From Alphaproteobacteria bacterium (GTDB lineage Bacteria; Pseudomonadota; Alphaproteobacteria; UBA828): 39,318 nt of DNA. This document shows, in pieces, positions 8,596 through 21,076 of this stretch; position 1 is the stretch's first letter; every line of letters begins with the position of its first letter. A model generated the notes under the pieces. The model was not told the origin of the DNA, made no database searches, and saw nothing but the letters and a program-made list of their open reading frames with translations. Location: positions 1-39,318 of the forward strand of contig JAJEEP010000137.1 of the NCBI GenBank assembly GCA_022820945.1, given 5' to 3'. Both the position numbers and the translations under genes were made by a program.

Positions 8596-9531
8596 TCAGC
8601 GGGCGAAGGCGGCCTTGAGCGCCGCCGCCGAGTCCGCAAGGCCCGCCTCGGCGCTCTCGATCAGGCCGGTGATCGAGACGAAGCCATGGATCATGCTCTC
8701 GTGGCAGCGGTATTCCGTGGGCACGCCAGCCGCCTCCAGGCGCCTGGCGTAGGCCTCGCCTTCGTCCCGCAGCGGATCGAAGCCGGCGGTGAGCACGAAC
8801 GCCGGCGGCAGGTTGGAGAGGTCGGGCGCCAGCAGCGGCGAGGCGAGCGGGTCGGCCGCATCGCCTTCCGGCCCCACGTAGCTCGCGACATAGAAGGGCA
8901 TCGAGTTGAGCAGGTAGCCCGAGGAATAGAGCCTCTTGGACTCGGTCTCGCCGGCGAGGTCGGTGGCAGGGTAGATCAGGAGCTGGAAGCAGATCGCGGG
9001 CCCGCCGCGCTCTCGCGCATTCAGCGTCACGCCGCAGGCGATATTGCCGCCGGCGCTGTCGCCGCCGATGGCGAGCCGTGCCGGATCGGCGCCGAGCTGT
9101 GCCGCGTGCTCCGCCACCCAGCGGGTCGCGGCGTCGCAGTCCTCGAGTGCGGCGGGGAAGCGGTGCTCGGGCGCGAGTCGGTAGTCCACGGACGCCACCA
9201 GGCAGCCCGCGTGATGACAGAGGTAGCGGCAGACATCGTCGTGGGTGTCGAGGTCGCCCCGTATCCAGCCGCCGCCGTGGTAATAGACGAGGATCGGCAG
9301 CGGGCCTGTGCCCGCCCCCTCCGGCTCGTAAAGCCTGACCGCGAGAGGGCCGGCGGGCCCCGGCGCCTCGTGCGTGCTGACGGACTTCACCGGCAGCGGC
9401 TTGCCGGCGACGGCGGCCATCTCCTCCTTCCACTCCGCGCGGGCGTCTTCCGGCGTCATCTCTTCGACCGGGGTCTCGGCGCTCGGGTCGAGCGCGGCGA
9501 AAATCTCCGCCAGCGCGGGGTCGAGCTTCAT
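8596..9531 (-). CDS. Alpha/beta hydrolase, hormone-sensitive-lipase (type IV) esterase
   Basis: Cytosolic carboxylesterase of 311 residues. The oxyanion-hole motif HGGGW (85-89), nucleophile Ser159 in GGDSAGG, Asp252 in GFDPLRDEG and His282 in MIHGF complete the HSL triad. YRLAPEH (117-123) is also diagnostic of the family. It sits between the luciferase-like monooxygenase (24 bp upstream) and an SDR (16 bp downstream). If the monooxygenase is of Baeyer-Villiger type, this esterase would open the resulting ester or lactone; that is inference. Confidence 0.93.
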   Translation of the reverse strand: MKLDPALAEIFAALDPSAETPVEEMTPEDARAEWKEEMAAVAGKPLPVKSVSTHEAPGPAGPLAVRLYEPEGAGTGPLPILVYYHGGGWIRGDLDTHDDVCRYLCHHAGCLVASVDYRLAPEHRFPAALEDCDAATRWVAEHAAQLGADPARLAIGGDSAGGNIACGVTLNARERGGPAICFQLLIYPATDLAGETESKRLYSSGYLLNSMPFYVASYVGPEGDAADPLASPLLAPDLSNLPPAFVLTAGFDPLRDEGEAYARRLEAAGVPTEYRCHESMIHGFVSITGLIESAEAGLADSAAALKAAFAR

Positions 9532-9555
9532 GGTGGCTTGTCTAGATGGCGTGCG

Positions 9556-10662
9556 TCAGGCGCCAGCGGCGGCGCGCAGGGCCTCGCCGCCCTCGAAACA
9601 GGGCGCCACCTCGTCGGCGAAGCGGCCGAGCCAGGCCTGCCGGAGGCGGCGCGGCACCCCGGGCGTCGCCGTGTGAATAAGGAAGCTGTTGAAGCCCGCG
9701 TCCACGTAATCCGCGACACGCTCCCGCACCGTCTCGGGCGAGCCCACGAACTGACCGTCGGCCCAGGGCGGGATGTTGGCGGGATCGGTGCGCGCCTTCA
9801 TTTTGGCGAAGATCTTGGCCCAGGCGGTGTAGGTCGAGAGCGTCTCGAAATGCCCGTCGTCGGCCTCGTAATGGTCGATCTGTGCCTGCTGGAAGCGCGG
9901 GATGTAGCGCTTGGCGAGGTCGTAGGCCTCGTCGTCGGTGTCGGCGACGATGCAGTTGATCATCATCGGGTAGCGGCAGGCGTCCACGTCCATGCCGCGT
10001 GCCTGCGCCGCCTCCTTCCAGCCGGCGAGTGCCTCGCGCTGCAGCGGCAGGTTGCTGAAGGCGGTCATGATGGGCGGGAGCCCGAGCGCGGCCATCACCG
10101 CGCCTGAGTCGGGGCTGCCGCCGACGGCGCCGTAGAAGTTGATCTTGCTCGTGTCCGAGCGGGGGCGCAGCTCTACCCGGGTCGGCACGGTCAGATACTT
10201 GCCCTCGTAGCGGAAGCGCCCGCCGGCGAGCGCGGTACTGACAATCTCCCAAACCTCACGGAAGCGCTGCCGGCTCTCTTCCATCGGCACGCCGAAGGCG
10301 TCGTACTCGTACTTCGCCGTGCCCCGGCCGAGCCCCATGTGGAGCGGCTGGTCGGTGAGCAGGTTGAGCTGCGCGATCTCCTCGGCGAGCCGCAGCGGCT
10401 CGTACCAGGGCGTCACCAGCACGCAGGTGCCGAGCGCGAAATCCGGGAAGCGCGCGGCGATGTGGGAGAGAAAGGCCAGGGGATTGGGGGTCGGGAAGTA
10501 GTCGGAGAAGTGATGCTCGATCATCCAGGCCGCCCGGTAGCCGGCCCGGTGGGCGAAGGCGCAGTCCGCCAGGATCTCCTTGTAGAGCGCGGCGTCGGAG
10601 AGTCCGTCCTCGCCCACCGGCGCCGCAACGAAGGCAAAGTCGATGCCGCCTGGCGCGCTCAT
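9556..10662 (-). CDS. Luciferase-like flavin-dependent monooxygenase (LLM class)
   Basis: 368-residue TIM-barrel protein of the bacterial luciferase-like family, which uses reduced FMN or F420 and oxygen. The N-terminal IDFAFVAAPV strand, AWMIEHHFSDYFPTPNPLAF, LGTCVLVTPWYEPLRLAEEI and GLGRGTAKYEYDAFGVPMEE are characteristic of the LuxA-like alkanal-monooxygenase subgroup. ATG at 10662 is preceded by CGGGAG. The gene leads the operon with the esterase and SDR. A possible flavin reductase partner is encoded at 5752. The substrate cannot be told from sequence. Confidence 0.88.
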   Translation of the reverse strand: MSAPGGIDFAFVAAPVGEDGLSDAALYKEILADCAFAHRAGYRAAWMIEHHFSDYFPTPNPLAFLSHIAARFPDFALGTCVLVTPWYEPLRLAEEIAQLNLLTDQPLHMGLGRGTAKYEYDAFGVPMEESRQRFREVWEIVSTALAGGRFRYEGKYLTVPTRVELRPRSDTSKINFYGAVGGSPDSGAVMAALGLPPIMTAFSNLPLQREALAGWKEAAQARGMDVDACRYPMMINCIVADTDDEAYDLAKRYIPRFQQAQIDHYEADDGHFETLSTYTAWAKIFAKMKARTDPANIPPWADGQFVGSPETVRERVADYVDAGFNSFLIHTATPGVPRRLRQAWLGRFADEVAPCFEGGEALRAAAGA

Positions 10663-10848
10663 CGTTCTCCCGCACTGTCTGCCGCGAACGGGCGGAGACT
10701 CGGGCCATCGTCGCCGGCTGTCAATGGCCGCCGTGTCGCGGCGGGCGGGGCGCCCGAAGACGTGCGCCGACGGGGATCGGTCGACGCCACAGGGGAAAGC
10801 TTGTGTCCGCAATTGGACGTACCTTGCATCTCGCGTTATGAGGATGAA

Positions 10849-11270: not shown

Positions 11271-12044
11271 TCAGAGGCTCAGCGGTCTCTCAGGCAGAAT
11301 CTGGCCGCCGTCGAGCACGATGTCGTGGCCGGTGACGAAGCGGGCCTGGTCGGAGGCGAGATAGAGCAGCGCGTAGGCCACGTCTTCCGGGTCGCCCAGG
11401 TGCCCGGCGGGGATCACGCGGCTGAACTCCGCCACCGCCTCGTCGCCGCGGGCCTGGGCGATGCCCTCGGTCAGAATTGAGCCCGGTGAGACCGTGTTGG
11501 CGGTGATGCCGAAGGGCGCAAGCTCCAGCGCCGCGCCGCGCACGAAGGCGTTCACGCCGCCCTTGGACGCCATGTAGCAGCTCACGTCCGGCAGGCCCAC
11601 GCGCGGTCCGGTGATCGACGAGACGACGAGCAGCCGCCCTGTCCGCTGGCTCTTCATCTGCGGCAGGCACGCCTGGACTGCAAAGAACACGCCCTTGAGG
11701 TTGGTGTCCATCACGTCGTCCCACATCGCCTCGGTCATGTCGGCGATCAGCGCGTTGGGGTAGATGCCGGCGTTGAGGCAGAGGATGTCGATGCGGCCGT
11801 AGCGCTCGATGCAGACCTGGGCCATGCGCTCCATGTCCGCCCTGCTGCGCACGTCGGCCTGGAGGAACGAGGCCTCCAGGCCCTCGGCCACGATGGCGTC
11901 GGTCGTGCTCTGGCCGGCCTCGGGGCTGCGGTTCACCACGAGCACGCGTGCGCCCTCGCGCGCGAAGACCTCGGCCACGGCCTTGCCGATGCCGCGGCCG
12001 GCGCCGGTGACGATCGCCGCCTTGCCGGGGAGGGTGATCGGCAC
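11271..12044 (-). CDS. SDR family oxidoreductase (operon with HyuAB)
   Basis: 257-residue classical SDR: TGAGRGIG at 13-20, NAG at 91-93, catalytic Ser143, Tyr157 and Lys161, and VTGHDIVLDGG near the end. The GTG at 12044 gives the normal start MPITLPGKAAIVTGAGRGIG and has a GGGGG stretch upstream. An ATG at 12101 would add 19 residues and overlap the HyuB stop, and cannot be excluded. It is the last gene of the minus-strand run Fe-ADH, HyuA, HyuB, SDR. In the analogous acetophenone pathway an SDR oxidises 1-phenylethanol to the ketone that the HyuAB-like carboxylase then uses; a similar job is proposed by context only. Confidence 0.88.
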   Translation of the reverse strand: MPITLPGKAAIVTGAGRGIGKAVAEVFAREGARVLVVNRSPEAGQSTTDAIVAEGLEASFLQADVRSRADMERMAQVCIERYGRIDILCLNAGIYPNALIADMTEAMWDDVMDTNLKGVFFAVQACLPQMKSQRTGRLLVVSSITGPRVGLPDVSCYMASKGGVNAFVRGAALELAPFGITANTVSPGSILTEGIAQARGDEAVAEFSRVIPAGHLGDPEDVAYALLYLASDQARFVTGHDIVLDGGQILPERPLSL

Positions 12045-12084
12045 AGATGCCCCCGCGACGCGGCTTGCGGTGCCGCTTGAGCCC

Positions 12085-13902
12085 CTAGGCCGTAGCACCA
12101 CCGCCGTTCATTGAGGACCGGAGCCGGGCGGTGGCGGCTTCGTCCACGGCAAGCGAGTCATCCTCCACGCTGCCGGTGACGGCGACGCCATAGGTCTCAC
12201 GTGCCGTCTCCACGGTGATATAGCGCTCGGACACGTCGTTGAGCACCCGATGGGTCTCGCGTTCCAGCGGGCTGCCGTAGCCGCCGCCGCCCTGATCCCG
12301 CGCACGCAGGCGCTCGCCCCCTTCCAGGTCGCACACCATCACCGCCGGATAGGGGTGCTCGGAGCCGTCCCGCTCGATCTTGGCATTGCCGCCGAGCTGG
12401 GAGCCGGTGCCGCCGCGCACGCCCTTGGGCGCGCTCTCTAGCCCGTTGCAGACGTGGAGGATGCGCATGGGATCGTTTCGCGGCCCCATGATCACCTCGG
12501 TCGCAGGCCCGCCGCGCCTGCGGCCGTGGCCCATGGAATCGGTGACCACGTGCATCTTGTCGATCAGCACGGGGAAGCGCTGCTCGTTGATCTCGATGCT
12601 GTCGCGATAGAGCAGGCCGGCGGCCACCGGCACGAAGAGGTAGTGCATGCCGTCGTTCTCGGCCGATGCGCCGCCGCCGCCGCCCATCATGAACATCTGG
12701 TTGATGTAGCGCTCGCCGTCCCGCCGCCAGTCGGTGCCGGAGGCGACGCCGGCTGCGGCCGAATTGCAGTAGTTGCCGTGGGCGAAGCCCTGGCCGTCGC
12801 CGAGCTCGGCGAAGGCGGACTGGGTCACGTTCACGATCACGTCGGTGAGGTTGGTGGTGGCCACCGAGCAGCTGTGCGGGAAGCGCGGGATGCCCACCGC
12901 GCAGTTCTCGCGCAGCAGCACCTCGATGCGCCGCATGGTGCCGGAGTTGGGCGGCAGGTCCTCGCCCAGGCAGGTGAGCACGCCCTGCACCGCCGCCATG
13001 GTCGACGTGGTCTCGGTGAGGTTGAGGCCTGCGTCGATGCAATCGATGTTGTCGCGGAGGTCCACCGTCACCTTCGCCGCGTCCGGGTCGATATCGATGG
13101 TGACGTTGATGGGAATGCCGTCCGGCACCCAGGGCTCGACCGGATCGTGCGCCTGCGAGCCCTTGAGCTTGCCCTTGGGCAGCGCGCGGATCGCCTCGAT
13201 GCAGCGACGCTCGGAATAGTCGAACCACTCCTCGGTGAAGTGGCGCACCGAGTGGGCGCCGTACTTGGCGATGAAGCTCTTGAGCGAGCGCTCGCCGATG
13301 CGGGCCGCGCCCACGGCGGCGAGATAATCGCCGTACCACTGCTCCGGCACGCGGATGCGCCGCTCGCACATGCGGATGATGTCGTCGATGTCCTGGAACT
13401 CGCGCTGCACCTGGACGCAGGGGAAGATCAGCGCGCCTTCTTGATAGACGTCCGCGGCTTGCGCCATGTAGGTGGTGGGCAGGCTGTTGCCGACATCGGC
13501 CTGATGCGCCTTCACCGCGACGGTGAAGAAGTGCTCGCCCTCGTGGAACACCGGCACCAGGATGGTGTGGTCGGCCGGGTGGGTGTTGCCGAGGTAGGGG
13601 TCGTTGTGGAGAAAGGCATCGCCCTCGGCATAGTCGGGATGCAGGTCCTGCATCGACTTGGTCTGGATGTTGGTGCCCCAGACGTGGATGGGGAAGCCCT
13701 CGGCCACGGCGAGCACCTGATTGTCGGACGTGATGACCGCGCAGGAGAAGTCGCGCGCCATGCCGATGACGGACGAGCGCGCCGCCAGCAGCATGGTGTT
13801 GGTCATCTCGCGGCAGACCGCGTCCATGCGGTTTGCCATCACCGGCAGCAGCACCGGGTTGATGCGGTTCTCCCGCCCAGCGTCGGCGAGTGCTTGTGCC
13901 AT
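12085..13902 (-). CDS. Hydantoinase B/oxoprolinase family protein (HyuB; possible carboxylase subunit)
   Basis: 605-residue HyuB-family subunit. Recognisable blocks are FSCAVITSDNQVLAVAEGFPIHVWG near residue 53, the metal-site-like GDAFLHNDPYLGNTHPADHT (about 94-113), KAHQADVG, and C-terminal GGGGYGSPLERE. Relatives act with HyuA in hydantoinases, 5-oxoprolinase, and the ATP-dependent acetone and acetophenone carboxylases. The gene starts 11 bp after hyuA, so the subunits are made together. Operon partners are two dehydrogenases, and a CoA ligase is divergent. This fits a ketone carboxylase better than hydantoin use, as no dihydropyrimidinase, carbamoylase or racemase gene is present. No small gamma-type subunit was found in the operon. 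Confidence 0.9.
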   Translation of the reverse strand: MAQALADAGRENRINPVLLPVMANRMDAVCREMTNTMLLAARSSVIGMARDFSCAVITSDNQVLAVAEGFPIHVWGTNIQTKSMQDLHPDYAEGDAFLHNDPYLGNTHPADHTILVPVFHEGEHFFTVAVKAHQADVGNSLPTTYMAQAADVYQEGALIFPCVQVQREFQDIDDIIRMCERRIRVPEQWYGDYLAAVGAARIGERSLKSFIAKYGAHSVRHFTEEWFDYSERRCIEAIRALPKGKLKGSQAHDPVEPWVPDGIPINVTIDIDPDAAKVTVDLRDNIDCIDAGLNLTETTSTMAAVQGVLTCLGEDLPPNSGTMRRIEVLLRENCAVGIPRFPHSCSVATTNLTDVIVNVTQSAFAELGDGQGFAHGNYCNSAAAGVASGTDWRRDGERYINQMFMMGGGGGASAENDGMHYLFVPVAAGLLYRDSIEINEQRFPVLIDKMHVVTDSMGHGRRRGGPATEVIMGPRNDPMRILHVCNGLESAPKGVRGGTGSQLGGNAKIERDGSEHPYPAVMVCDLEGGERLRARDQGGGGYGSPLERETHRVLNDVSERYITVETARETYGVAVTGSVEDDSLAVDEAATARLRSSMNGGGATA

Positions 13903-13913
13903 CGCTTCCTCCC

Positions 13914-16001
13914 TCAGGCGCCGGCGGCGCCGGTCTCCAGCAGGTAGTTCCGTCCGGCGGTCACGGTCGCCGACGAGCCCGGATAGACGACAATCGTGGT
14001 CGTGGGCTCCTCGACGATGGCCGGCCCCTTCAGCACCATGCCGGGCAGCAGATCATCGCCGAGATGGAAGGGCGTGTCCAAGGCTCCGGACTCGCCGAAA
14101 TAGGCCCGCGTGGTGCGGCGCGGCTTGGGCAGCGCGGCTTCGGTCATCGGCTCGGCCGGGAACGACGGCTTTTCGAGGAACGCCGTGATCCGGCCCTTCC
14201 AGTTGATGCACTCGATGGCGCCGCCTTCTTCCTTCACCGCGTAGCGGCGGAAGTGGACGTCGTGGAAGGTCTCCACCAAGCGCTCCACGTCCGCTTGCGT
14301 GTCGAAGCGATCCATGGGCATGGGGATCTCCATCTCCCACTGCTGGTTGATGTAGCGGGCCTCGACGAAATACTCGCGGCCGAAGCGCTCGATGCTGCGG
14401 CCGCGCAGCTTCTCCTCGAACGCGTCCATGCGCTGTGCGATGCCGGAGAGCGTGGCGCTGACACCCTCGAAGTCGAAGGTGTTGGAATGTGCATACCGGC
14501 TCGCGCTGAACTCGGTGACGATATTGGAGAACTGCCCGCCGCAGGCGCTGAGCGCGCCGGCGGTGCGCGGCAGCAGCACCCGGCGGCAGCCGAGGGCCTG
14601 GGCGATGGGGATGATGTTGAGGCCGGCGGCGCCGCCGCCCGCGACGATGATGCTCTCGCCTGGGTTCACCCCGTCTTGGACCGTGATCTCCTGGATCGCC
14701 TTGATCATCTGCTCGCCGGCGAGCGTCAGCACTGCCGAGGCGGCCTCGTCGGCGGAGAGCTTGAGGGGGGCTGCGACCTGCTCGATCGCCGTGGCCGCTG
14801 CGGCGACATCGAGGCTCATGCGCCCGCCGAGGAAGTAGTCGGGGTCGATGTAGCCGAGCACCACGGCGGCATCGGTGACGGTGGGCTCCTCGCCGCCCTG
14901 GCCGTAGCAGGCCGGGCCGGGGCGCGCGCCCGCGCTCTGCGGGCCGACGCGGAGCAGCCCGCCGGCGTCGATCCAGGCGATGGAGCCGCCGCCCGCGCCC
15001 ACGCTGCGCACGTCCACCGAGGAGAGGCCGAGGTTGTGGCCGATCCACTCACCGAGCAGCCACGTGTCGCGGGTGTACTTGACCTGGCCGCTGCGCACCA
15101 GGCTCACGTCGAAGGTGGTGCCGCCGGTATCGACGATGATGACGTCGTCGCCCTGGTCCTCGGCGCCGGCGTAGGCGATGCCCGCGAGCGGGCCCATCGC
15201 GGGCCCGGACTTCACGGTGTAGATCGGCTTCGCCACCACGTCGTCCACGTGCATGACACCGCCCGACGACGTCGAGATCAGCACCTCGCCCTCGCAGCCG
15301 GCCGCGCGCAGGTCGCTCTCGAACTCGGCCAGATGGCTCTGCATCAGCGGCTTGAGCGAGGCGTCGATGGCGGTGGAAGACGTGCGCGGGAACTCCCGGA
15401 TGATCGGGTTGAGCTGGTGCGAGAGGGTGTAGGGCACGCCCGGCATGATCTCCGCGATCAACGCGCCGATGCGCAGCTCGTGGTCGGGATTGACGATGGA
15501 CCAGAGCAGCGCGACCGCGACCGCATCGATGCGCTTGCGCGGCAGGCTCTCGATGATCGCCCGCGCGGCGGCTTCGTCCAGCGCCCGCTCGACGCCGCCC
15601 TCGGCGTTGATCCGCTCCGGGATCTCGAAGGTGAGCCGGCGCGGGATGTAGGGCGGCGGGAACTCCATCGCGAGGTTGAGCGGCTCGCGCTTGCCGCCGT
15701 GGCGGTAGAGCAGCGTGTCCGGGAAGCCCTCGGTGGTGAGCAGCGCAGTCTTCGCGACCTTGCTCTCGATGATCGAGTTGGTGGAGCGCGTGGTGCCGTA
15801 GATCAGCATCTCGGTCTCGGCGAGCAGCCGCTCGGCGGAGACGCCGGCGATGTCGCCCGCGTTGGCAAGCGCGCCGCTGAAGCCCTCGAAGGTGCGCTCT
15901 ACAGTGGTCAGCGCCTTGCCGACGGTGAGCCTGCCCGCCTCGTCGGCGACCACGACATCGGTGAACGTGCCGCCGGTATCGACGGCAATGCGATAGCCCA
16001 T
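13914..16001 (-). CDS. Hydantoinase A/oxoprolinase family ATPase subunit (HyuA; possible carboxylase subunit)
   Basis: 695-residue HyuA-family protein with the actin-like ATPase fold. Phosphate-1 loop IAVDTGGTFTDVVVAD is at 5-20, the second phosphate loop IIVDTGGTTFDVSLV lies mid-protein, and SVGAGGGSIAWID and GPACYGQGGEEPTVTDAAVVLGYID mark the family core. The C-terminal part carries ARYINQQWEMEIP, a segment shared with carboxylase-type members. Family chemistry is ATP-driven activation of an amide or of bicarbonate/ketone enol by phosphorylation. ATG at 16001 follows a CGGGAGA ribosome site. It lies 22 bp after the alcohol dehydrogenase and 11 bp before hyuB. Confidence 0.92.
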   Translation of the reverse strand: MGYRIAVDTGGTFTDVVVADEAGRLTVGKALTTVERTFEGFSGALANAGDIAGVSAERLLAETEMLIYGTTRSTNSIIESKVAKTALLTTEGFPDTLLYRHGGKREPLNLAMEFPPPYIPRRLTFEIPERINAEGGVERALDEAAARAIIESLPRKRIDAVAVALLWSIVNPDHELRIGALIAEIMPGVPYTLSHQLNPIIREFPRTSSTAIDASLKPLMQSHLAEFESDLRAAGCEGEVLISTSSGGVMHVDDVVAKPIYTVKSGPAMGPLAGIAYAGAEDQGDDVIIVDTGGTTFDVSLVRSGQVKYTRDTWLLGEWIGHNLGLSSVDVRSVGAGGGSIAWIDAGGLLRVGPQSAGARPGPACYGQGGEEPTVTDAAVVLGYIDPDYFLGGRMSLDVAAAATAIEQVAAPLKLSADEAASAVLTLAGEQMIKAIQEITVQDGVNPGESIIVAGGGAAGLNIIPIAQALGCRRVLLPRTAGALSACGGQFSNIVTEFSASRYAHSNTFDFEGVSATLSGIAQRMDAFEEKLRGRSIERFGREYFVEARYINQQWEMEIPMPMDRFDTQADVERLVETFHDVHFRRYAVKEEGGAIECINWKGRITAFLEKPSFPAEPMTEAALPKPRRTTRAYFGESGALDTPFHLGDDLLPGMVLKGPAIVEEPTTTIVVYPGSSATVTAGRNYLLETGAAGA

Positions 16002-16023
16002 GGGTGTCTCCCGTAAACCTGCG

Positions 16024-17241
16024 CTACCAGGCCTTGTGCAAGAGGTCGATGACCTCGTCCTCGGACGTCACCTGGCGCGGATTGCCGGCGACGATGATGT
16101 CCTCCAGCGCATCGGCCGCGATGCCGGGGAAGTCGTCGTGGGTGACGCCCACGTCGCGGAGCCGCCACGGCAGGCCCATGTCGTCCTTTACCAGCCTAGC
16201 CACCTCGTCGGCTGCGGCGGTCGCGGCCTCCTCCTCGCTCATGCCTCCGATATCCATGCCCATCGCCTCGGCCGCCCAGGCCTGGCGGGTCGCGGTGGTC
16301 TCGCGGTTGAAGGCCATGACGTGCGGCATCATCACCGCCGAGGTCTCGCCGTGCGGCACGTTGCAGCGGGCGCCGAGCTGGTGGCCGATACCGTGGCTCA
16401 GGCCCAGCGTCACGTTGGCGAGGCCGCAGACCGACATCCAGGCCGCCACCATGCACTGCGCGCGCGCCGCCGCATCGCCGGGGTCCGCCCTGGTCTCGCG
16501 CAGGTAGCGCACCAGCATGTTGAGCGCGCGGTAGGCGAGCGCGTCGATGAAGGGCTGGCTGGTGCTGGAGCACATCGCCTCGATGCAGTGGTCGACCGCG
16601 CGCATGCCGGTGCCGAGCCAAAGCCGCTCCGGCGTCTCCATGGTGAGCTCCGGGTCGAGGATGACCGCCTTCGCCGTGATCCGCCGGTCGACGTAGAGAT
16701 CCTTGACCTTGCGCTCCTCGTCGGTGACGCCGACGAAGTAGGTGAACTCGCCGGCGGAGAGCGTGGTCGGGATCGCGAACATCGGGATCGGGTCGTTGGC
16801 GAGGGACGGAATCTCCACCTTGTCCGGGTAGGTGAACTTGATCATGTAGGCATCGAGCCCTGCGGGCTCGGTGATGCCCTCGGCGAGGCAGATCAGGGTC
16901 GCCTTGGCGGTGTCGTTGGGCGTGCCGCCGCCGAAGCTGATGAGCGCATCCGCATCGCGCTCGCGCGCGTACTCGGCGGCGGCGATGACGGTGCGGCGCG
17001 GCACGTGCTGCGAGGTCTCGTGAAAGACGCCCGCGCACTTGTTGCCGGCGGCTGCGGCCACCTTGTCCACCAGATTCGTCTTCTGTGCCAGGGTGTTGCC
17101 GGTGACGATGACGGCCCGGCTCACGCCCTGCTTCTCGAGCTCGGCCGAGAGATTGTCGAGGCTGCCGGAGCCGAAATGGACCTCGTCCATCGGCAGCATG
17201 GTGAAGTGCCCCTTGAGCTCCTGCTTGGGCAGCGAAAGCAT
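16024..17241 (-). CDS. Iron-containing alcohol dehydrogenase family, maleylacetate-reductase-like
   Basis: 405-residue group III dehydrogenase. The dinucleotide motif GGGTPNDTAK is at 104-113, followed by PTTLSAGEF. In the metal region the usual GMDALTH is GMRAVDHCIEA (212-222): His218 is kept, but the Asp ligand position holds Arg214. Downstream GLSHGIGHQLG and CNVPHGE retain His283, His287 and His297. Maleylacetate reductases of this superfamily also lose the Asp and work without metal. The protein could therefore be a maleylacetate reductase-like or metal-independent enzyme rather than a true Fe-ADH. First gene of the HyuAB operon; its promoter lies in the 143-bp gap shared with the acyl-CoA synthetase. 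Confidence 0.9.
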   Translation of the reverse strand: MLSLPKQELKGHFTMLPMDEVHFGSGSLDNLSAELEKQGVSRAVIVTGNTLAQKTNLVDKVAAAAGNKCAGVFHETSQHVPRRTVIAAAEYARERDADALISFGGGTPNDTAKATLICLAEGITEPAGLDAYMIKFTYPDKVEIPSLANDPIPMFAIPTTLSAGEFTYFVGVTDEERKVKDLYVDRRITAKAVILDPELTMETPERLWLGTGMRAVDHCIEAMCSSTSQPFIDALAYRALNMLVRYLRETRADPGDAAARAQCMVAAWMSVCGLANVTLGLSHGIGHQLGARCNVPHGETSAVMMPHVMAFNRETTATRQAWAAEAMGMDIGGMSEEEAATAAADEVARLVKDDMGLPWRLRDVGVTHDDFPGIAADALEDIIVAGNPRQVTSEDEVIDLLHKAW

Positions 17242-17287
17242 GGGTCTCTCCGATTGCGGCGGCCGGCGCGGGCCGGGTGCTGCCGAG

Positions 17288-17301
17288 CAAACACTTGTTT
17301 G
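17288..17301. promoter_or_regulatory. PsrA-like operator palindrome between divergent genes
   Basis: CAAACACTTGTTTG is a perfect palindrome with 6-bp arms. It fits the PsrA box (G/C)AAAC-N2-4-GTTT(G/C); PsrA is a TetR-type repressor released by long-chain fatty acids or acyl-CoA. It stands 46 bp before the dehydrogenase ATG and 83 bp before the acyl-CoA synthetase ATG, so it could control both transcripts. No TetR gene is in the window. Confidence 0.55.
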
Positions 17302-17384
17302 AAATCCGAGTCAATTCCGCGTAGAGCGTGGCGGCGCGCACCGCGTGAATTCGGGCATTCGAGGGGCGAGCCGGGAGGAGCCGC

Positions 17385-18938
17385 ATGAGGCTGATCGACT
17401 ACTTCGAGCGTGGCCATCGCTACTATCCGGACCGCGCCTGCCTCATCGACGGGACCGGGGAGCTCAGCTACCGCGAAGTCGCCCGGCGCAGCCACCGCAC
17501 CGCGAACGCGCTGCTCGCGGGCGGGCTCGCGGCCGGCGACCGGGTGGCGATCCTGAGCCCCAACTCGAGCCGCGCCTTCGAGGCCTGGATCGGGGCGGCG
17601 CGGGCCGGCGGCGTCTGGGTCGGGCTCGCGGCGCTCGCGTCGGCGGACGAGAACGCCTACGTCATCGACCAGCGCGAGGCCGCCTGGCTCTTCTACCATT
17701 CGAGCTTCGAGCCCGTGATCGGGCAGATCCGCGCCCGGTGCCCCAAGCTCCGCCATCTCGTCTGCCTCGACCGTGAAGGCGCGGACGCGCCCTCCTTCGA
17801 GCAGTTCATTGCGGGCCACGGCGATGTGGCGCCCGAGCTGCCGGACGAGCGCGATGCCGTGATCAGCCACTTCACCTCCGGCGGCACCACGGGCCTCCCC
17901 AAGGGGGCGATGTGGTCCAACCTGATCTGGGAGGCCTGGTGCGCCAACGTCTACGCGCACCTGCCGATCAGGAAGCCGCCGGTTCACCTGGTGGCGACCT
18001 CGATGGCCCACGGTGCGGGCGTCTTCGCCTGGCCCGCCATGGCCTTCGGCGGCACCACGGTCAGCATCCAGAGGCCCGATCCGCTCACGGTGCTGGAGGC
18101 GATCGACCGCCACGGCGTGACCCACACCTTCATGCCGCCGACGATGATCTACATGATGCTGGCGCACCCCCGCGCCAGGGAGTTCGACTATTCGACGCTG
18201 GATTACTTCGTCTATGGCGGCGCGCCGATGTCGGCGGACAAGGTGGCCGAGGCCATCGATCTCTTCGGCCCCTGCATGACCCAGATCTACGGCCAGGCCG
18301 AGTGCCCCTGCACCATCGGCATTCTGACGCCGGCCGACCACCTGGAGGCCCTGGCCGACCCCGCCAAGCAGCACCGCCTGGTGAGCTGCGGCCGGCCGCC
18401 GGTCTTCGTCGAGGTCGAGATGATGGACGACGCGGGCACCCTGATGCCCACCGGCGAGTGGGGCGAGATCGTGGTGCGCGGCACCTTCGTCTCCCTCGGC
18501 TACTTCGCCGACCCCGAGGCCACAGCGGAAATCCGCGCCCACGGCTGGCACCACACCGGCGACATTGGCTACAAGGACGAGGACGGCTTCGTCTACATCG
18601 TCGACCGCAAGAAGGACATGATCATCTCTGGCGGTCTCAACGTCTTCCCGATCGAGATCGAGCGCGTGATCTGGAGCCACCCGGCGGTGCAGGACTGCGC
18701 CGTGATCGGCGTGCCCGACGAGAAGTGGGGCGAGGCGGTGAAGGCGGTCGTCGAGCTGAAGCAGGGCCAGCGGGTGAGCGGCGGCGACCTGATCGCGCTC
18801 TGCAAGCGGGAGCTCTCGGCCTACAAGGCGCCCAAGACGGTGGAGTTCTGGGACGAGCTGCCCCGCAGCGGCGTGGGCAAAGTATTGAAACGCAAGGTCC
18901 GCGAGCGGTTTTGGGAAGGACACCAGCGGAAGATTTAG
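17385..18938 (+). CDS. AMP-dependent acyl-CoA synthetase/ligase
   Basis: 517-residue member of the ANL superfamily that activates a carboxylic acid as acyl-AMP and then as CoA thioester. The P-loop-like motif HFTSGGTTGLPKG is at 162-174, YGQAE at 302-306, TGDIG at 391-395, the hinge DRKKDMIISGG at 407-417, and catalytic Lys499 in PRSGVGKVLK. GGGAGGAG precedes the ATG at 17385. Transcribed away from the Fe-ADH/HyuAB/SDR operon across a gap with a PsrA-like box. Acid substrate unknown: medium-chain or aromatic, and a beta-keto acid made by HyuAB would suit the context. Confidence 0.93.
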   Translation: MRLIDYFERGHRYYPDRACLIDGTGELSYREVARRSHRTANALLAGGLAAGDRVAILSPNSSRAFEAWIGAARAGGVWVGLAALASADENAYVIDQREAAWLFYHSSFEPVIGQIRARCPKLRHLVCLDREGADAPSFEQFIAGHGDVAPELPDERDAVISHFTSGGTTGLPKGAMWSNLIWEAWCANVYAHLPIRKPPVHLVATSMAHGAGVFAWPAMAFGGTTVSIQRPDPLTVLEAIDRHGVTHTFMPPTMIYMMLAHPRAREFDYSTLDYFVYGGAPMSADKVAEAIDLFGPCMTQIYGQAECPCTIGILTPADHLEALADPAKQHRLVSCGRPPVFVEVEMMDDAGTLMPTGEWGEIVVRGTFVSLGYFADPEATAEIRAHGWHHTGDIGYKDEDGFVYIVDRKKDMIISGGLNVFPIEIERVIWSHPAVQDCAVIGVPDEKWGEAVKAVVELKQGQRVSGGDLIALCKRELSAYKAPKTVEFWDELPRSGVGKVLKRKVRERFWEGHQRKI

Positions 18939-19767: not shown

Positions 19768-20988
19768 TCAGGTCTTCACCTGCAACTCGCGGGGCCAGTT
19801 GGCGAGGGTCTCCGCGCCGGTCTCGGTGATGCGGATGCTCTCGGTGATCTCGAGGCCCCAGTCCTCGAACCAGAGCGCGGGCATGAAGTGGATGGTCATG
19901 TCGGGCCGCAGCTCGGCGCGATCTCCGGGGCGGAGGCTGATCGTGCGCTCGCCCCAGTCCGGCGGATAGCTGAGCCCGATGGAATAGCCGCAGCGGCTCT
20001 CCTTGGTCAGGCCGTGGCGCGCGAGGGAGTCCACGAAGGCGCGGTGGATGTCCTCGCACAGGTTCCCCGGCTTCGCGGCGTCGAGCCCCGCCTCGACGGC
20101 CTCCAGCAGCGCGCCTTCCGCGTTGCGCTCGCGGGCCGTGGGCCGGCCCAGGAACACCGTGCGGCAGAGCGGGCAGTGGTAGCGCCTGTAGACGCCCGCG
20201 ATCTCGAAGAACGTCGCCTCGCCCGCCCGCATCGGCTTGTCGTCCCAGGTGAGATGGGCCGCCGAGGCGTCGATGCCGGTCGGCACCATCGGCACGATGG
20301 CGGGATAGTCGCCACCTGCGCCCTCCACGCCTGTGATGGCCGCGTGGAAGATCTCCGCCACCAGGTCGTTCTTGCGCATGCCGGGCTCGATCGCCTCCAT
20401 GATGCGCGCGTGCATCTTCTCCACGATGCGCGCCGCGTTCTTCATAAAACCGATCTCGGCCTCGGACTTCACGATGCGCTGCCAGTTCACCAGGCCCGTG
20501 GCATCCAGCAGGGTCGCCTCCCGCAGGTGAGTCTCCAGCGAGCGGTAGGCGGCGGCGCTGAAGTAGTAGTTGTCCATCTCGACGCCGATTCGCGCGCCGG
20601 CCCAGCCGCGCTCGGCGATCACCTCGCTCAGGTAGTCCATCGGGTGGCGCTCGGTGGACATCACGTAGTGGTCCCCGTAGGCGACGATGTCGTCGTGCCC
20701 CATGAACACGGTGCGCTTCGCCCCGTTCGCGTCCATGCCGCGCCCGAACCACACCGGGTCGCCTTCGAGCCCGAGCAGCACGCACTGGTGCACGTAGAAG
20801 GACCAGCCGTCGTAGCCGGTGAGCCATGCCATGTTGGAAGGGTCGGAGACGACGATCAGGTCGAGCCCCCTCGCGTCCATCGCGCGGCGGGTCTTCGCGA
20901 TCCGCGCCGCGTATTCCTCGCGGGAGAAGGGAAGATCGACCGGCGGGGGTGCGCCGGTATCGCCGGTCGTGAGCGGGGTGCTGGTCAA
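19768..20988 (-). CDS. doeA: M24-family hydrolase, ectoine hydrolase-like (DoeA/EutD)
   Basis: 406-residue creatinase/prolidase-fold protein. FSREEYAARIAKTRRAM, DPSNMAWLTGYDGWSFYVHQ, GYSIGLSYPPDWGERT and WGLEITESIRITETG closely follow ectoine hydrolases, which open the ectoine ring to N-acetyl-diaminobutyrate. The two Asp metal ligands of M24 peptidases are replaced: the first by Glu in FFEIAG, the second by Pro/Leu in YHCPLCRT. This agrees with the metal-independent EutD/DoeA enzymes. Start TTG at 20988 has GGAGA 9 bp upstream; ATG at 21060 would add 24 Arg-rich residues. No doeB, doeC or doeX neighbour is present, so the role in ectoine use is provisional. It lies between two toxin-antitoxin pairs. 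Confidence 0.75.
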   Translation of the reverse strand: MTSTPLTTGDTGAPPPVDLPFSREEYAARIAKTRRAMDARGLDLIVVSDPSNMAWLTGYDGWSFYVHQCVLLGLEGDPVWFGRGMDANGAKRTVFMGHDDIVAYGDHYVMSTERHPMDYLSEVIAERGWAGARIGVEMDNYYFSAAAYRSLETHLREATLLDATGLVNWQRIVKSEAEIGFMKNAARIVEKMHARIMEAIEPGMRKNDLVAEIFHAAITGVEGAGGDYPAIVPMVPTGIDASAAHLTWDDKPMRAGEATFFEIAGVYRRYHCPLCRTVFLGRPTARERNAEGALLEAVEAGLDAAKPGNLCEDIHRAFVDSLARHGLTKESRCGYSIGLSYPPDWGERTISLRPGDRAELRPDMTIHFMPALWFEDWGLEITESIRITETGAETLANWPRELQVKT

Positions 20989-21076
20989 GGCCGGAAGTCT
21001 CCGAGGACGCGGTGTCGCCAACGCCCGATCATATCGCAAGCGCTGCCAAGCACGATGCACCGAAGGGCGCGGGACG

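Follow-up and report, generated by a model that had tools for sequence, protein, structure and literature searches.

A HyuAB pair of the two-subunit hydantoinase/lactamase branch linked to an iron-containing alcohol dehydrogenase and a divergent CoA ligase in uncultured alphaproteobacteria

The genes for an iron-containing alcohol dehydrogenase (Fe-ADH) and for the subunits HyuA and HyuB, together with a divergently transcribed CoA ligase gene, may form one co-regulated catabolic unit in which an ATP-dependent ring-opening hydrolase would feed a CoA-ester pathway, a reading to which we give a probability of about one half. They are treated as one unit because they are conserved, co-occur across genomes and share a palindrome at their promoters, and HyuAB lies in the two-subunit hydantoinase/lactamase (Hyd) branch of the hydantoinase/carboxylase superfamily. 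This superfamily is large and mostly without assigned function, and the promoter palindrome offers a route to function assignment: it connects one HyuAB clade with dehydrogenase and CoA ligase genes, and in relatives with a set for beta-oxidation, which amounts to a concrete, testable pathway. A literature search by title and abstract opening, partial in its coverage, yielded no description of a Fe-ADH/HyuAB/CoA-ligase unit and nothing on hydantoinases in Rhodospirillales metagenome-assembled genomes.

Layout of the gene cluster

The window, meaning the whole stretch of 39,318 nucleotides that was analysed, is contig C28 of a 4.66-Mb assembly (G000; completeness 95.17), whose contamination of 6.45% counts against the reading given above. 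The five genes placed here by an earlier note on this DNA are all present as open reading frames, with family scores well over cut-off, and their positions were confirmed:

11271..12101, minus strand: SDR oxidoreductase, open reading frame with a likely start near 12044; a lineage-specific rider outside the conserved core
12085..13902, minus strand: HyuB, metal-site subunit, 605 aa; PF02538, 402 bits
13914..16001, minus strand: HyuA, ATP-binding subunit of the ASKHA type, 695 aa; PF05378/PF01968 (257 bits)/PF19278; hydantoinase/lactamase branch
16024..17241, minus strand: Fe-ADH, iron-containing alcohol dehydrogenase and first gene of the operon, 405 aa; PF25137/PF00465
17385..18938, plus strand: acyl-CoA synthetase, AMP-forming, 517 aa; PF00501/PF13193; divergent from Fe-ADH
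17285..17335, no strand: conserved 51-bp block between the divergent genes, defined by an alignment of six genomes of the genus, among which it hardly varies
17288..17301, no strand: palindrome CAAACACTTGTTTG (other strand CAAACAAGTGTTTG), proposed operator; one match in the window, none in 100 shuffles

The order on the minus strand is Fe-ADH, HyuA, HyuB, SDR, with 22 bp between Fe-ADH and HyuA, 11 bp between HyuA and HyuB, and a divergent gap of 143 bp between Fe-ADH and the ligase. The SDR reading frame runs into the end of HyuB, and the later start is the likelier one in view of a 257-aa relative in locus L041. The label maleylacetate-reductase-like is not specific for the Fe-ADH: the best match among solved structures is lactaldehyde reductase (196 bits), entries named maleylacetate reductase reach 109 bits at most, and an entry called MAR1, possibly such an enzyme, scores 188 bits. 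No NCBIfam model was matched by the Fe-ADH at or over its cut-off.

Two further features of the window lie near the cluster. A DoeA-type ectoine hydrolase is encoded at 19768-21060 (683 bits against a cut-off of 613), with no further ectoine genes identified alongside; a link to ectoine was dropped, as among the relatives' loci compared DoeA occurs only in G017. At 8596-10812 a luciferase-like monooxygenase gene adjoins that of a LipP1-type hormone-sensitive lipase (375 bits, cut-off 350), and this pair is kept in G020 and G016. The monooxygenase–esterase pair, also seen in the g2 genomes, was set aside because the monooxygenase falls below the match threshold and the esterase is no more than 28-33% identical.

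A conserved Fe-ADH–HyuA–HyuB core

Orthologues were sought in 22 genomes of the order, counting that of the window, with limits of E ≤1e-100 for Fe-ADH and E ≤1e-130 for the CoA ligase. At these limits Fe-ADH is found in 14 of the 22 genomes (G013 has a 45% match just beyond the limit) and the ligase in 15, namely the same 14 plus G007; seven genomes have neither, and the pair is distributed over four of the seven genera. HyuA directly adjoins Fe-ADH in 12 of the 14 genomes, with a contig break inside HyuA in G016 and G019. The exceptions are G009, where the two genes lie on separate contigs, and G005, where a peptide-type permease gene follows Fe-ADH and HyuA is missing at that place. Wherever both genes occur in the window's genus (six genomes), the ligase is adjacent to Fe-ADH and divergent from it; in G002 and G003 some 6 kb separates the two, and in the other six genomes the ligase is found elsewhere. 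G010 carries an additional 95-aa ligase fragment at a contig end near Fe-ADH. G014 (g6) likewise has divergent genes for a Fe-ADH (41%) and a ligase (31%) that are more distantly related, with a 63% HyuA nearby. A peptide-type ABC transporter stands beside HyuAB or Fe-ADH at seven loci (G002, G003, G005, G006, G008, G010 and G011), where the HyuAB of the G006 locus is a second one.

Fe-ADH, HyuA and HyuB are thus the conserved core, and the SDR is not part of it. The SDR was seen in G000 and G017 only; in G020 and G016 a STAS gene follows directly after HyuB, and the contigs of G015 and G019 end at this point. The proposed analogy with acetophenone breakdown, in which the SDR supplies a step, does not stand in this respect, as the analogy needs an enzyme that is not conserved.

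A palindrome at the Fe-ADH and ligase promoters

When the gap between Fe-ADH and the ligase was aligned for six genomes, a 51-bp block containing CAAACAAGTGTTTG proved almost unchanged and the remainder drifted. The pattern CAAAC-N4-GTTTG occurs a single time in the 4.66-Mb assembly. Across 12 genomes scanned it has 25 sites, against 11 for a control consisting of the pattern read backwards, so that the bare pattern is merely about twofold over background. The exact 14-mer accounts for 11 of the 25 sites, and all 11 lie at the Fe-ADH promoter (ten genomes) or at a ligase/acyl-CoA dehydrogenase promoter (G008:C64). It is present at the Fe-ADH promoter in every one of the ten g1 and g5 genomes scanned (G000, G015, G016, G017, G019, G020, G006, G008, G010 and G011). 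A site with a different centre precedes a peptide-type ABC binding protein gene in G010, and none of the present gene set was found among the genes around the remaining 13 sites. Outside the 12-genome scan, the pattern occurs at the ligase/acyl-CoA dehydrogenase promoter of G007 and, with one mismatch, at Fe-ADH of G005. Weaker matches are present in G009, at Fe-ADH (two mismatches at best) and at the ligase promoter (one), and at the G006 and G011 ligase promoters (two each). Of 2000 random 160-bp stretches, 15 contained the pattern when up to one mismatch was allowed and 84 when up to two were. The palindrome is missing at Fe-ADH of G002 and G003, the two g2 genomes scanned, and from the G646 stretches examined.

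A concentration of sites was observed in G654, which belongs to a third family. Six CAAAC-N4-GTTTG sites fall within its 40-kb catabolic region (G654:C2:112000-151900, L223/L159), which also has two TetR genes, and none in 39 kb of flanks; 100 simulated sequences for this region gave a mean of 0.01 sites and a largest count of 1. The six sites surround the two TetR genes, a ligase gene, an acyl-CoA dehydrogenase–E1–enoyl-CoA hydratase set and a LIV-CMD-Fe-ADH operon, and two of them adjoin the TetR genes, whose products are 76% identical to each other. TetR genes beside sites were seen in G654 only. The palindrome resembles the operator consensus of PsrA, a regulator of the PsrA/FadR-like TetR type. 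No sigma-70 promoter was found on scanning the divergent gap. Fe-ADH, HyuAB and the ligase are perhaps a TetR-type regulon.

Neighbouring genes in more distant relatives

In G646, a member of another family, relatives of HyuA (64%) and HyuB (68%) are encoded downstream of a thiolase in one operon, which faces genes for an acyl-CoA dehydrogenase, another CoA ligase, two E1 dehydrogenase proteins, an enoyl-CoA hydratase and a CMD-like protein; in the trees described below the G646 HyuA falls within the window HyuA clade. In G654 a 56% relative of Fe-ADH lies in a region with genes for a ligase, an acyl-CoA dehydrogenase, E1 proteins, an enoyl-CoA hydratase and a LIV transporter, many of these names having been assigned by eye, and no HyuAB was found within 78.9 kb, though Fe-ADH stands among palindrome sites. 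The orthologue of the window ligase adjoins a thiolase in five g5 genomes (G006, G007, G008, G009 and G011), and in the first three of these it also faces acyl-CoA dehydrogenase and E1 genes, as judged by Pfam searches on sample genes. The link between dehydrogenase, HyuAB and ligase that the earlier note had proposed is probably real, given the shared set of 14 genomes, the exact palindrome and the G646 operon.

A thiolase next to HyuAB and opposite a CoA ligase is what a ketone carboxylase of reduced subunit composition would lead one to expect: Fe-ADH would form a ketone, and HyuAB would carboxylate this to give a beta-keto acid, whose CoA ester, made by the ligase, the thiolase would cleave. 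The ligase–thiolase neighbours in the five g5 genomes and a thiolase gene some 6 kb away from HyuB in G003 point the same way. However, a thiolase is found in 21 of the 22 genomes of the order and is therefore not tied to HyuAB, which weakens it as a marker, and the SDR of the proposed ketone route is not conserved.

Beside some HyuAB pairs of sister clades, class-III aminotransferase genes were found by search (L120, L066, L149) or by eye only (L145), which suits amide hydrolysis in those sister clades. Another HyuAB locus, L067 (G009:C2), has a HyuA 75% like the window's and lies beside genes that, judged by eye, resemble those of a multicomponent diiron monooxygenase, an amidase and an amidohydrolase.

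Placement of HyuA and HyuB

The assembly shows an unusual expansion of this superfamily: its 4.66 Mb contain 43 matches to PF02538 (HyuB) and 34 to PF01968 (HyuA), and a first look at the genomes of the order gave between 12 and 59 HyuA candidates each. Among profiles, the window HyuA scores highest with CapA (530 bits), followed by ApcC (305) and ApcA (194), and the pair misses the NCBIfam equivalog cut-off for CapAB of 1000 bits (CapA 530, CapB 263). Against solved structures, HyuA scores 401 with CapA, 345 with N-methylhydantoinase, 298 with ApcC and 218 with AcxB, and HyuB ranks its counterparts alike (caprolactamase 190, N-methylhydantoinase 157, Apc 85, Acx 65). A search of 398 genomes with the ApcC model at E 1e-290 returned no match and is uninformative at that limit.

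A first HyuA tree comprised stretches longer than 560 aa, with one copy kept per identical central part (121 reduced to 90 rows); three of the 34 HyuA matches of the window's genome (C147:91298, C172:39106 and the short C50:60178) have no locus and are in no tree. A second tree of 43 rows combined 26 rows picked by hand from the 90 with 13 gamma-linked rows and four references, leaving out ApcA and the partial HyuA rows of the L184-L191 loci. The gamma-linked loci stem from 23 of 367 genomes with PF08882, of which 17 stretches were used, four of them 69-71% identical to AcxB; the trees hold neither a 5-oxoprolinase nor an Iaa reference sequence. In the 43-row tree, the 15 acetone/acetophenone-carboxylase or gamma-linked rows are split off by one branch (99/98), and the window clade groups with CapA (99/95) in a clade of 20 rows. 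CapA is not grouped with N-methylhydantoinase, and the window HyuA lies outside the clade of the latter. Forcing the window clade together with the Acx/Apc rows, a grouping named after a first tree had been inspected, was 192.5 log units worse and was rejected by the AU test (p-AU 1.4e-6). A HyuA placement with the hydantoinases had been set beforehand as evidence against the carboxylase proposal, and this came out at the level of the branch, HyuA being on the Hyd side, but not at the level of the enzyme, as it groups with CapA rather than N-methylhydantoinase.

The subunit set gives a similar picture. Excerpts of PMC5214803 describe four to five genes, apcABCD(E), for Apc, and excerpts of PMC5214803 and PMC8453981 describe for Acx a gamma subunit and longer subunits, the HyuB type having about 720-776 aa. 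The window pair has none of these carboxylase marks and consists of two adjacent genes only, and in the tree its HyuA falls on the Hyd side; by the present rule of thumb in the same excerpts of PMC5214803, two subunits alone mean amide hydrolysis. The absence of a small carboxylase subunit gene, already remarked in the earlier note, was borne out by a PF08882 search of the contig. PF08882 matches in the assembly are confined to C170 and C114: one stretch (C170:16611-16898) is inside a HyuB reading frame without adjacent HyuA, the other (C114:15964-16185) just after a HyuB, which makes these the candidate carboxylase-type loci of G000. Gene number, gamma subunit, subunit length and tree, the marks taken from PMC5214803, together point to a two-subunit hydrolase.

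Active-site residues are less telling. HyuA has the ATP motifs DTGGTFTDV, DTGGTTFDV and GARPGP, and D51, H108, D111 and H133 of HyuB align with the four metal ligands of CapB; both features are common to the whole superfamily and so are not decisive. A lysine equivalent to CapA Lys40, said in excerpts of PMC8453981 to be missing from oxoprolinases, is present in HyuA (VGKALTT). HyuB Y145 occupies the column of CapB Tyr136, and tyrosine is found there throughout the window clade. The 16 carboxylase or gamma-linked HyuB rows have no tyrosine in this column (seven Phe, seven Met, two Trp), which speaks against a carboxylase, but the other 98 aligned rows are mixed (60 Tyr, 20 Phe, six Leu; N-methylhydantoinase has Leu), so that the residue is no clean mark. 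The window HyuB also has Asp where Acx-type rows carry Glu, and so does ApcD. Taken with the CapA-side tree, the AU test, the missing gamma subunit and the short HyuB, these results leave the ketone carboxylase suggested in the earlier note unsupported and, in our estimate, unlikely, even though CapAB itself requires bicarbonate according to excerpts of PMC8453981.

An ordinary hydantoin, N-methylhydantoin or oxoproline enzyme with accidental neighbours would fit the 43 HyuB matches, which make chance adjacency likely, and N-methylhydantoinase genes reported from sponge microbiomes in excerpts of PMC6742649. The window pair was nevertheless rejected as the N-methylhydantoinase, since a different paralogue in the same genome, L107 on contig C151, is the match (64%). 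No carbamoylase was recognized in the linked gene set, and the palindrome and co-occurrence bind HyuAB to Fe-ADH and the ligase. An ordinary enzyme of this kind with accidental neighbours is a very improbable explanation.

Proposed pathway and its substrate

In the co-regulated unit with a ring-opening hydrolase that we favour, the palindrome would be the operator, and a TetR-type repressor would sense the substrate or its CoA ester. HyuA would spend ATP on activating a ring carbonyl, that of a cyclic amide or a related compound, and the activated intermediate would be hydrolysed at the metal site of HyuB. Fe-ADH may act on the same substrate, interconverting an alcohol group with an aldehyde or ketone, the ligase would form the CoA thioester, and the acyl-CoA dehydrogenase, enoyl-CoA hydratase and thiolase, which are neighbours in relatives, could complete the breakdown.

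Two considerations would count against ring opening: an amide product should need amine handling, and the thiolase operon of G646 appears to follow the logic of a beta-keto acid route. Neither an aminotransferase nor an amine dehydrogenase was recognized in the linked gene set, which leaves room for a nitrogen-free substrate and even for the reduced carboxylase. A tentative version is that a HyuAB of the two-subunit branch, recruited to a TetR-controlled acyl-CoA regulon, acts with ATP on a substrate free of nitrogen (a ketone, a lactone or a cyclic diketone), by carboxylation without a gamma subunit or by ring hydrolysis, as the entry to an undescribed pathway in uncultured alphaproteobacteria; we regard this as possible though doubtful. 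If true, it would break the rule that equates two subunits with amide hydrolysis (PMC5214803, in excerpt).

The sequence of steps could also be reversed, with the ligase acting first and HyuAB opening a ring on the CoA thioester, as has been suggested for IaaCE in the degradation of indoleacetate. The conserved tie between ligase and HyuAB would agree with this, and IaaCE is a two-subunit relative, 2-oxoindoleacetyl-CoA lactamases being placed in the Hyd branch in excerpts of PMC8453981 and PMC5214803. No Iaa genes were recognized by eye in the gene lists inspected, however, and we consider this order of events quite unlikely.

Relation to characterized enzymes

The closest of the known systems compared is CapAB of Pseudomonas jessenii (6YRA), with which the window pair shares two subunits of similar length, the ATP motifs, the four metal ligands, the Tyr136 equivalent and the 20-row clade. 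It differs from CapAB in having Ala-Ala in place of the vicinal Cys-Cys of CapB, in scores below the equivalog cut-off and in the lack of an aminotransferase gene in its conserved unit. N-methylhydantoinase (7HK5) stands on the same side of the tree as the window HyuA, but in a separate clade, and it is matched by a different gene of G000. Apc of Aromatoleum (5L9W) and its pathway have analogous neighbours, namely a dehydrogenase and a CoA ligase, with a thiolase in relatives of the window; Apc, however, has four to five subunits, and a HyuA clade with Apc and Acx was rejected. Acx of Xanthobacter (5SVB/5M45) belongs to the same superfamily and has the same metal site, but unlike the window pair it has a gamma subunit and longer subunits, with Glu in the D41 column and Met in that of Tyr136.
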